Shown piece after piece: positions 8,853 through 37,711 of a stretch of DNA of 37,711 bases. The stretch is taken from NCBI GenBank assembly GCA_013349435.1, contig DUZQ01000025.1:1-37711 (forward strand), in the 5' to 3' direction. The notes below the pieces were generated by a model. The model was not told where the DNA came from. It made no database searches and saw only the letters and a list, made by a program, of their open reading frames with translations. The stretch is from Planctomycetota bacterium (lineage in GTDB: Bacteria > Planctomycetota > Phycisphaerae > Sedimentisphaerales > Anaerohalosphaeraceae). The first letter of the stretch is position 1. The number at the start of each line of letters is the position of its first letter. The position numbers and the translations under genes are program-made.

Positions 8853-8915
8853 GATGTGGGTCTGTTCGAGACCCGGGGAAACTCTTCGGCGGGAAAACTC
8901 TTTTGGGGCCATACA
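8853..8915 (+). promoter_or_regulatory. Structured 5' leader of the flagellin transcript
   Basis: The leader opens with a perfect 6-bp hairpin, GGGTCT-GTTCG-AGACCC (8858-8874). Two imperfect direct repeats follow: GGGGAAACTCTT (8875-8886) and GGGAAAACTCTT (8891-8902). There is no good Shine-Dalgarno sequence before the ATG at 8916, only GGGG at 8905-8908. The repeated GGA elements could bind a regulator such as CsrA, which is known to act on flagellin leaders in other bacteria. That is inference. Confidence 0.45.
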
Positions 8916-9716
8916 ATGCTTTCAGTTCAAAACAGCTTCTATAGCACCTCTGCGCTGGATGGTGTCTATGCGAGCATGGCGCAAGAAGTATCAAGTCTGC
9001 CTTCGATGATTCTCCTAACGAGTCCTGACAGATACACAGGTACTTCGCTGGCAGACAATTTATTGCGTATCAGCATCGCAGAAAATACCGAAAATACGGC
9101 GAGTGTCAACGCCGGGATGTCCCTGGTACAAAGTGCCGTCTCTGTCCTTGAAACAATCAGTGAAAAGGTTGACCAGATGAAGGAATTGGCGCAGGAGGCT
9201 ACAACAACTCCCAAAAAGGAAGACAGGGAGGCACTACAGGAGCAGTTCGACGAGCTTTCTGAACAGGTCAACGCCATTGCGGTTCAGTTCGGTCTCGGCG
9301 GCAACATGTTTACGAAAGACGGCGACAGTGTCGAAGTATCAATCGGCAGCGGTTTATCCATCAGTATTGATACCAAAAACCTTACAATCAGCGGACTTGG
9401 CATCATTAACAATGTTGATATTGTAAACGACGCCGCCGGTGCTGTAGCAGGGCTTGAACTTGCCGACGGTGAGCTTAACGACTACATGGACCACCTCGAA
9501 GAGAAGTTGGCCGACCTGGCGTCGGTGGCAGACGTCCTTGACGCCCAGAGCCAAAACCTTCTTGCTGTGCAGGCCGGTATTCAGCAGGCCGGTTCTGCCA
9601 TGGCGGTTGCTAACTCGCTTAACTCAAACTACTTTGCTCAGGCCGACCTGTTTCTCGCCGCACAGGTAAACGCAAATATTATTGCCGATACGGTTTTGAG
9701 ATTGTTAGCTGATTAG
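8916..9716 (+). CDS. Divergent flagellin paralogue
   Basis: 266 residues from the ATG at 8916. That start was chosen because it gives MLSVQNSF, matching the flagellin start MLSVKNNL in the next gene; the frame is open 60 bases further upstream to an ATG at 8856. The C-terminal D0/D1 part is recognisable (QSQNLLAVQAGIQQAGSA, then LFLAAQVNANIIADTVLRLL), as is a helical N-terminal D1 (MSLVQSAVSVLETISEKVDQMKEL is split here by no gap). The near-invariant N-terminal signature, RLSSGLRINSAGDDAAGL in the neighbour, is replaced by unrelated residues. It may be a minor, cap- or hook-proximal flagellin or one losing function. It is translated just before the normal flagellin, 14 bases apart. Confidence 0.75.
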   Translation: MLSVQNSFYSTSALDGVYASMAQEVSSLPSMILLTSPDRYTGTSLADNLLRISIAENTENTASVNAGMSLVQSAVSVLETISEKVDQMKELAQEATTTPKKEDREALQEQFDELSEQVNAIAVQFGLGGNMFTKDGDSVEVSIGSGLSISIDTKNLTISGLGIINNVDIVNDAAGAVAGLELADGELNDYMDHLEEKLADLASVADVLDAQSQNLLAVQAGIQQAGSAMAVANSLNSNYFAQADLFLAAQVNANIIADTVLRLLAD

Positions 9717-9730
9717 GAAATGTTAAATCA

Positions 9731-10516
9731 ATGTTATCAGTAAAAAACAATTTAATGGCCGCCCAGGCGGCTTCTAATGCCGCAACGGTTTACCACGGGA
9801 TGAATACGAGTCTCAAAAGACTCTCATCCGGGTTGCGTATTAATTCGGCTGGTGATGATGCCGCCGGTCTTGCGGTTTGTGAATTGATTCGCGCCGACAT
9901 AGCGACCGCCCGCCAAGGCTCGTCTAATGTGCGGGACGGTATATCGTTGGTTCAAACAGTTGACGGTTCTGCAAACTCAATCAGCTTTAGTCTTATCAAG
10001 ATGAAGCAGTTGGCAACACAGGCCTCAAACGGCACGTATTCAGCCCAACAAAAATCGATTATGCAGCAGCAGTTCAACGAGTTTGCTGATGAAATTAACC
10101 GAATAAGCGGGTCCACAACCTTCAACGGTATCAATCTCTATGCACAAGGGCGGACTATCGATATTGCGCTGGGCAATGGTGATACCATAAGTATTGAGAC
10201 ACAAAGTATCAGTATTGACTCAGTTGATTTAATTACAGACCCCCAGGCGGCACTGGAAGCAGTGGATAAGGCGATAAAACAGCTAAGCAGCTACCGCGGC
10301 AGTCTGGGAGCAAAGGCCCAGCGACTCAAAAGCGCCGAAACCGTTATCGATAGCAAGGCGGAAAATTTGCTTGCTGCACAGGCGCGAATCTCAAATGCGG
10401 ACGTTGCCGCAGAGGTGGCTTCTCTGTCATCCGGGCAGGTTTTAGTCAAGTCTGCGATAGCAGCCCAGGCACACTCAAATACAATCCTGAAGCTGGCGCA
10501 GATTCTTTTGAAATGA
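9731..10516 (+). CDS. Flagellin
   Basis: 261 residues, a short flagellin with only D0 and D1 helices and a small central beta region in place of variable outer domains. The N-terminal signature RLSSGLRINSAGDDAAGLAV (residues about 31-50) and the C-terminal D1/D0 helices (ENLLAAQARISNADVAAE, then AQAHSNTILKLAQILLK) are complete. The C-terminal residues that pack in the filament core match known flagellins. AGGAAA (9715-9720) precedes the ATG and overlaps the stop of the upstream flagellin, so both share one mRNA. No other flagellar gene is in the window, so the filament genes lie apart from the basal-body cluster. Confidence 0.95.
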   Translation: MLSVKNNLMAAQAASNAATVYHGMNTSLKRLSSGLRINSAGDDAAGLAVCELIRADIATARQGSSNVRDGISLVQTVDGSANSISFSLIKMKQLATQASNGTYSAQQKSIMQQQFNEFADEINRISGSTTFNGINLYAQGRTIDIALGNGDTISIETQSISIDSVDLITDPQAALEAVDKAIKQLSSYRGSLGAKAQRLKSAETVIDSKAENLLAAQARISNADVAAEVASLSSGQVLVKSAIAAQAHSNTILKLAQILLK

Positions 10517-10692: not shown

Positions 10693-11050
10693 ATTCAAAA
10701 CCTGATAAACCATTAGGGCCTCGTTCCGCCGACAGCAGGCCGGTGTTCCTTTGGCATCGGTCTGCCCCTTTTTGAACAAAACAGCAGAAAATTACTTGCC
10801 ACAATATTAAGACTCATCTAAGGATTCCACCCAAAGTATTGCAGTGAAACAATAAAAATCATTGCAAAAACTATAAATCGCTGACAAAAGCGTTGTCTTT
10901 TGTAAACAATTAACAAATCCCCCTGAAACGAAAAGGTTTAAGACCGATAATAAAGGTTGATGCGTAACACCGCTATCAATTTATGTTTACATTATACAAC
11001 ATTATGGTACAGTCCAAATTGCTGTTTTGTCCGGCAAAATATATTGTAAC

Positions 11051-11104
11051 CTGCCTAAGTATTGTTGAGATGGCAACTTAAGATAAAGAAGCGCACTTGG
11101 GCAG
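11051..11104. promoter_or_regulatory. Dyad upstream of the sigma54 promoter, candidate enhancer site
   Basis: CTGCCTAAGT (11051-11060) and ACTTGGGCAG (11095-11104) are inverted copies with one mismatch. They sit about 40-95 bases before the predicted sigma54 start, a plausible range for an NtrC-type activator site. The activator is unknown. Confidence 0.35.
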
Positions 11105-11117
11105 ATAATAAGTTTTT

Positions 11118-11133
11118 TTGGCACAAAACTTGC
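11118..11133 (+). promoter_or_regulatory. sigma54 (-24/-12) promoter
   Basis: TTGGCACAAAACTTGC matches the sigma54 consensus TGGCAC-N5-TTGC with the invariant GG (-24) and GC (-12) at exact spacing. Transcription would start near 11145. No protein gene follows on this strand before a terminator at 11250-11284. Confidence 0.8.
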
Positions 11134-11144
11134 GGATATATGAG

Positions 11145-11284
11145 AATGTTGAAGAAAAGTGGATCTTAGATTTGGCACAAGCCCGGGAGGAGGTGCCTCC
11201 ATATAAGATACAAACCAAGACTGTGTTTAAGTCTTGTTAGGGTGATAGTGGAGCCGGACCGGAGGAGGCTGGCTCCCTTTTTTT
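11145..11284 (+). ncRNA. Candidate sigma54-dependent small RNA
   Basis: About 140 bases lie between the sigma54 promoter and a strong terminator. Three stem-loops can be drawn. GGCAC/GTGCC (11174-11197) has GGGAGGAGG in its loop; CCTCC at 11196-11200 offers an alternative pairing. CAAGACT/AGTCTTG (11216-11236) has a 7-base loop. The terminator hairpin has GGAGGAGG in its loop. No credible open frame exists: only a 9-codon ATG frame without a ribosome site and a 15-codon GTG frame directly abutting the AGGAGG. The two exposed GGA-rich motifs recall CsrA-binding RNAs, or it may pair with mRNAs. It lies downstream of the flagellin genes; many flagellar regulons use sigma54. Confidence 0.6.
11250..11284 (+). 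terminator. Rho-independent terminator of the small RNA
   Basis: GGAGCCGG (11250-11257) pairs with CTGGCTCC (11269-11276), followed by C and seven T's. Confidence 0.85.
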
Positions 11285-11333
11285 GCGCGCATTTACGTCC
11301 TTGCCAGGAGTGCACATTTTCTTAATGTTTAAT

Positions 11334-37297: not shown

Positions 37298-37711
37298 GTG
37301 GGCCACAGGCCCACCCTACCGGTTTCGCCCCGTTGGGACTTTTTGTTTTGTGTGGCGATCTATATCCCAGGGCTTCGCCCTGGGCTGTATTATTGCGCCC
37401 CTTCGGGGCTTTAATTAATTTTTGTTATTATTCCTTTCCCCCAGGGCTTCGCCCTGGGCTATATTATTGCGCCCCTTCGGGGCTTCTGGAAGCGGTGGGC
37501 CATCCGCAGTCGCCAAGGCTATGGCGGGACAAAAGGCCCACCTTACATTTCTGGATGCCGGGGCAGGCCCCACCCTACCTCATTTTCCCCAGGGCTTCGC
37601 CCTGGGCTGTATTATTGCGCCCCTTCGGGGCTTTAATTAATTTTTGTTATTATTCCTTTCCCTCAGGGCTTCGCCCTGGGCTGTATTATTGCGCCCCTTC
37701 GGGGCTTTAAT
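37298..37711. repeat. Array of GC-rich hairpin repeats
   Basis: It begins with the palindromic repeat also found at 24333-24354. Four copies of a unit follow from about 37366, 37440, 37588 and 37662 (window ends in the last). Each holds hairpin CCCAGGG-CTTCG-CCCTGGG, a spacer TGTATTATTGC and hairpin GCCCC-TTC-GGGGC. Copies 1-2 and 3-4 are 74 bp apart and 2-3 are 148 bp apart. The A/T-rich joiner TTTAATTAATTTTTG recurs. Open frames here are chance translations. The region 36994-37297 holds CGCGGGGACAAG- and GCGATGTAAAG-type repeat fragments only. Confidence 0.85.

Follow-up and report, generated by a model that had tools for sequence, protein, structure and literature searches.

A conserved planctomycete small RNA with a predicted sigma54 promoter and GGA-loop hairpins as a candidate antagonist of CsrA

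CsrA binds GGA presented in the loops of hairpins, and its activity is controlled by small RNAs (sRNAs) such as CsrB and RsmZ or, alternatively, by the protein FliW (PMC4894983, PMC7652899). FliW and the csrB-activating BarA-UvrY system were described as mutually exclusive, with the Planctomycetes being among the likely users of FliW and RNA antagonists of the BarA-UvrY type being held to be gamma-proteobacterial (PMC4682653). We analysed a stretch of 37,711 nucleotides from a Planctomycetota genome, here called the window, and report that it carries at 11118-11284 one copy of a widely conserved, previously unlisted planctomycete sRNA; judged from its sequence, the locus is almost certainly a conserved sigma54-driven sRNA gene. 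Among the described systems with which it can be compared, Qrr and GlmZ are sigma54-dependent sRNAs acting by base pairing and CrcZ sequesters Hfq/Crc via A-rich motifs, while the site of GacA/UvrY is TGTAAG-N6-CTTACA.

Like CsrB/CsrC and RsmX/Y/Z, the RNA is noncoding, carries several GGA-loop hairpins and an intrinsic terminator, has an 18-bp palindrome far upstream of its promoter and occurs in a genome in which FliW is absent and csrA is present; as for CsrB/CsrC, one genome holds two paralogues, here under different promoters. With Qrr, GlmY/GlmZ and CrcZ it shares a -24/-12 promoter, and the two palindromes upstream of it are candidates for activator sites of the kind those RNAs have. 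Rfam searches at gathering and relaxed thresholds gave no match for the window locus or ten relatives, so that the RNA differs from CsrB/RsmX/Y/Z in having no Rfam or sequence match and from Qrr, GlmY/GlmZ and CrcZ in having no sequence or structure relation, and we found no description of this RNA in the literature. It further differs from CsrB/RsmZ by a sigma54 instead of a sigma70 promoter, from the GacA/UvrY-driven RNAs by its palindrome TGTTG-N8-CAACA, from CrcZ by GGA instead of A-rich motifs, and from the gamma-proteobacterial CsrB/Rsm RNAs by its host, a member of the Planctomycetota, for which FliW was assumed to be the antagonist (PMC4682653). Its proposed position, the release of CsrA targets, would be that of FliW, taken by an RNA instead of a protein. 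The features of the locus, in window coordinates, are as follows.

9731-10516, + strand: flagellin gene (Pfam Flagellin_N/C), upstream context outside the sRNA
10984-11001, + strand: distal activator-type palindrome TGTTTACATTATACAACA (family consensus TGTTG-N8-CAACA), at a fixed distance in the family
11056-11080, + strand: proximal palindrome TAAG-N17-CTTA (family TAAC-N17-GTTA), at the same position across the family
11118-11133, + strand: sigma54 promoter, -24 TTGGCAC / -12 TTGC, kept upstream of relatives
11145-11284, + strand: predicted sRNA gene reaching to the T-tract, its start being placed from the -12 element; matched by covariance model R3
11164-11208, + strand: hairpin P1 of the minimum free energy (MFE) fold, apical loop region with GGAGGAGG (11186-11193), covarying in family f7
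11216-11236, + strand: hairpin P2 (CAAGACT/AGTCTTG) of the MFE fold, covarying in f7
11237-11249, + strand: linker TTAGGGTGATAGT, conserved in family f1 as AGAGGGTGATGT according to the alignments
11250-11284, + strand: P3, intrinsic terminator hairpin supported by covariation, with GGAGGA loop and T7
11285-11288, + strand: GCGC right after the T-tract

The initial annotation had described an exact -24/-12 element, a strong terminator behind it and no credible reading frame between them, and all three descriptions hold. The promoter TTGGCACAAAACTTGC (11118-11133, + strand) includes TGGCACAAAACTTGC (11119-11133), the sole exact sigma54 site of the window, the core TGGCAC-N5-TTGC giving a single match without mismatch when both strands were scanned. 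Placing +1 about 12 nt past the -12 element predicts a transcript of 11145-11284, which ends in a terminator with a stem at 11250-11276, the loop GGAGGA at 11261-11266 and T7 at 11278-11284; the fold of the locus is modestly better than that of shuffled sequences (z = -2.0). No ORF of at least 20 aa fits a gene running from this promoter to this terminator, a 40-codon frame at 11118-11240 beginning within the promoter and upstream of the predicted +1 near 11145. Alignments of the relatives contain indels that disrupt every reading frame, and no conserved frame is present between promoter and terminator.

Taken alone, the sigma54 site is no more than chance, as the exact pattern TGGCAY-N5-TTGC occurs 18 times in its own genome and the reversed control pattern 15 times; the case for a gene therefore rests on conservation. 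From the genome-wide counts, a chance promoter is expected at about 7e-4 per 260-nt upstream region. The remaining 17 exact sites precede flagellar (flgB, flgD type), ammonium-transporter, groEL and nitrogenase-cofactor-type genes, these names being read from translated N-termini and not from a family search.

When 11100-11300 was compared with 59 relatives by blastn, matches were confined to the 3' hairpin and came from five other genomes; in each of the five, a sigma54 promoter precedes the hairpin by some 80-200 nt. The 39 genomes of f1 were searched with R1, a covariance model restricted to the hairpin, and TGGYAY-N5-TTGC was found 48-118 nt upstream of the match in 19/19 best genomes, the pattern being rare in control blocks from the same loci; in family f2 the promoter accompanied 12/12 matches. 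Two broader models, R2 and R3, enlarged the family. R3 was built from only 14 f7 sequences, leaving out the promoter and all f1 sequences; it matches the window RNA at 11155-11290 (E = 2.4e-7) and 93/161 genomes of the order at E <= 0.01, and its 30 best f7 loci all show the promoter, with at most one mismatch, 39-54 nt before P1 (including L162, which lies near a contig end and whose promoter was read as L076). An exact-pattern scan for the terminator hairpin in 84,980 genomes returned 18 stretches, all from Planctomycetota (including Sedimentisphaerales, Phycisphaerae and Anaerohalosphaeraceae), with the sigma54 promoter in all 16 having enough upstream sequence. Promoter-free models thus repeatedly recover the promoter at the right place, which is more than chance would give. 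A random sigma54-like sequence before a random terminator, as might be read from the near-equal counts of sites and reversed controls, is refuted by promoter, palindromes and structure being conserved in three families, leaving it a probability close to nil.

Combining models and promoter checks, we find the RNA in about 109 of the 161 genomes of this order, which is apparently Sedimentisphaerales: 22/39 in f1, 12/13 in f2, 74/89 in f7 and 1/1 in f3, and in none of f4, f5 and f6 by the same approach; many genomes are draft assemblies, making the absences soft. Outside the order, a phylum sample of 392 genomes gave only two weak matches, both promoter-less. We discarded low-scoring R1 and R2 matches and those outside the order, which were mostly common terminators without sigma54 sites. 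A sigma54 promoter was not seen in a small number of divergent members, among them those of genus g37. The covariance-model search for conserved structure and promoter that the initial annotation had suggested thereby finds promoter and hairpins kept in three of the order's families, which supports its proposal of a small noncoding RNA driven by sigma54. For a phylum in which few sRNAs have been described, this is a large new RNA family, complete with promoter and candidate activator sites.

Two palindromes precede the promoter in this family, a layout as known for enhancer-binding-protein sites in sigma54 systems. The distal one starts 134-141 nt before the -24 T, with TGTT-N10-AACA beginning at 134-140 nt in 25 of 49 family members, compared with a maximum of 6 for any 4-mer palindrome in the shuffle control. 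In 11 of the 49 the proximal one is an exact TAAC-N17-GTTA that begins 63-67 nt upstream of the -24 T; in the window both its half-sites are altered together and the palindrome is kept. The palindrome pair is absent from the 17 further exact sigma54 sites that the genome contains, and an activator shared with flagellar or ammonium genes was rejected for this reason.

Three covarying hairpins, P1, P2 and P3, are conserved. In the f7 alignment 91% of cells pair and 11 pairs are changed on both sides, pairing falling to 35-49% in a control with slid partners; in f1, the 23 aligned P3 sequences pair in 97.8% of cells, and both partners have changed in 6 of the 8 pairs. The loops of P1 and P3 are GGAGGAGG-like. 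GAGGA is identical in the P3 loop of all 22 f2/f7 members, and the f1 loop, although variable, retains GGA in 21 of 23, compared with a mean of 9.5 and a maximum of 18 over 2000 trials with shuffled loops; the two members without it are those of G026 and G033. Over 49 transcripts, GGA occurs 282 times compared with 194 +/- 8 in dinucleotide shuffles and is, among G+C-rich trinucleotides, the one most often lying wholly within hairpin loops; as the members are related, these numbers are descriptive.

CsrA itself is nearly universal: of 66 good genomes in the order, 63 encode it, as does the window's genome, so its presence does not discriminate and was dropped as a co-occurrence test. It is similar to the CsrA of E. 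coli over 59 residues, including R6 and R44. FliW is encoded close to csrA in 12 of 13 f5 genomes and was found in 175/298 of a class sample; no FliW above the cut-off was detected in f1, f2, f3 or f7, the sRNA was found in 0/13 f5 genomes, and no genome among those examined has both. Fisher's test gives p = 5e-7 for this exclusion without correction for phylogeny, and the exclusion may reflect one event on one branch; f4, f6 and most of genus g2 have neither FliW nor the RNA. The CsrAs of FliW-containing f5 genomes share a C-terminal motif, ENxxAAnixLEDIT (L194-L198, L209, L210), which is missing in the CsrAs of the sRNA families, a difference fitting the reported binding of FliW to an extended CsrA C-terminus (PMC7652899).

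These observations suggest a model according to which a stand-alone sRNA gene of about 140 nt would be driven from its sigma54 promoter by an enhancer-binding-type activator bound to the two upstream palindromes, and the folded RNA would present GGA in the loops of P1 and of the terminator hairpin P3, sequester CsrA and thereby release its mRNA targets, a role that FliW would fill in f5, a sister family, and across most of the remaining class. GGA loops, FliW exclusion and CsrA tail difference lead us to rank this explanation best, and we consider it probable that the RNA is a CsrA-sequestering antagonist which took over from FliW. The whole evidence base is sequence comparison: CsrA as the partner is supported by correlation, and transcription, the identity of the activator and any effect on flagellin or other targets we infer from the features described. 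Speaking against a sponge, the loop GGAGGA is an imperfect match to the CANGGANG hexaloop, which was described for gamma-proteobacteria (PMC4894983). The GGA-loop RNA and FliW take each other's place within a single order, and the CsrA tail differs along with them; if CsrA binding is true, the RNA solution would have arisen independently here, under another sigma factor, and the order would offer a natural experiment on how a protein antagonist is exchanged for an RNA.

The same loops could be read differently. An ordinary trans-acting sRNA could use the GGAGGA loops or the AGGGTGATGT linker as seeds for pyrimidine-rich mRNA sites, and the conserved single-stranded loops and linker do resemble seeds, several sigma54-dependent sRNAs such as Qrr and GlmZ acting that way; the f1 loops, however, keep just the GGA core with varying flanks, which suits recognition by a protein better, and base pairing leaves the FliW exclusion and the CsrA tail difference unexplained, so that we regard this reading as possible and rather unlikely. 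Alternatively, the GGAGGAGG elements could be Shine-Dalgarno decoys binding the 16S rRNA 3' end and damping translation, as AGGAGG is a perfect anti-Shine-Dalgarno complement and the P3 loop of f2/f7 is invariant in GAGGA. Several f1 loops contain GGA without AGGAGG (GGAGAAG, GGAGUGA, AAGGAUU, CAGGAA), making a decoy improbable. A more specific form, in which a sigma54-switched RNA binds the anti-Shine-Dalgarno sequence of 16S rRNA with its two GGAGGAGG loops and favours leaderless mRNAs such as that of thiE, appears quite improbable as well, and we know of no sRNA for which such a principle was described.

The involvement of thiE is suggested by the gene order, the ThiD2-ThiE thiamine-phosphate synthase gene (thiE) lying downstream on the same strand in 26 loci, nearly always as the next gene and often with a gap of 40-120 nt to the terminator. 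This would be expected if the RNA were a 5' leader or attenuator of the thiE operon and no separate gene. However, in 20 of 21 loci (e.g. L098, L101, L104) thiE is preceded by a -10 element of its own (TATAAT or 5/6 positions), 12-16 nt ahead of the ATG, by which it looks leaderless and independently transcribed, and it is not downstream in the window and seven other loci, several of them with a convergent gene. The loci do not fit co-transcription with the downstream gene; the -10 element largely refutes a thiE leader or riboswitch, which we consider very unlikely, the sequences establishing the RNA's independence from thiE.

The designation of the RNA as an orphan is correct for the immediate surroundings of the window locus and does not extend further, as the RNA has a family, usually stands upstream of thiE and has a paralogue in the same genome. 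The position next to flagellin genes is likewise confirmed for the window and recurs in four other genera, but these five loci are a minority among the contexts of the RNA. At 8856-9716, immediately ahead of the regular flagellin gene, the window contains another flagellin-like gene, whose N-terminus is unusual (a weak match to Flagellin_N and none to Flagellin_C).

The paralogue is a second, diverged copy at G000:C20:28555-28729 (L173, E = 2e-4), preceded by a sigma70-like TTGACA element instead of a sigma54 promoter, and paralogue-type copies are present in eight f7 genomes (G056, G071, G072, G077, G078, G090, G091 and G109). Two loci of genus g34 without a sigma54 site had pointed to a promoter swap, which we rejected, since the same genomes also carry a sigma54 copy and the loci represent the second paralogue. 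The RNA of G034 (L029) has no sigma54 site and instead TTGACA-17-TCTAAT upstream, possibly a promoter switch, and G089 holds two sigma54-driven copies in one genome (L048, L069). GCGC follows the T-tract in 13 of 18 sRNA terminators compared with 2 of 25 other terminators, so a clade-wide habit was rejected. At 37366-37706, four matches to Rfam Acido-Lenti-1, spaced by multiples of 74 nt, form a repeat array reaching the end of the window.
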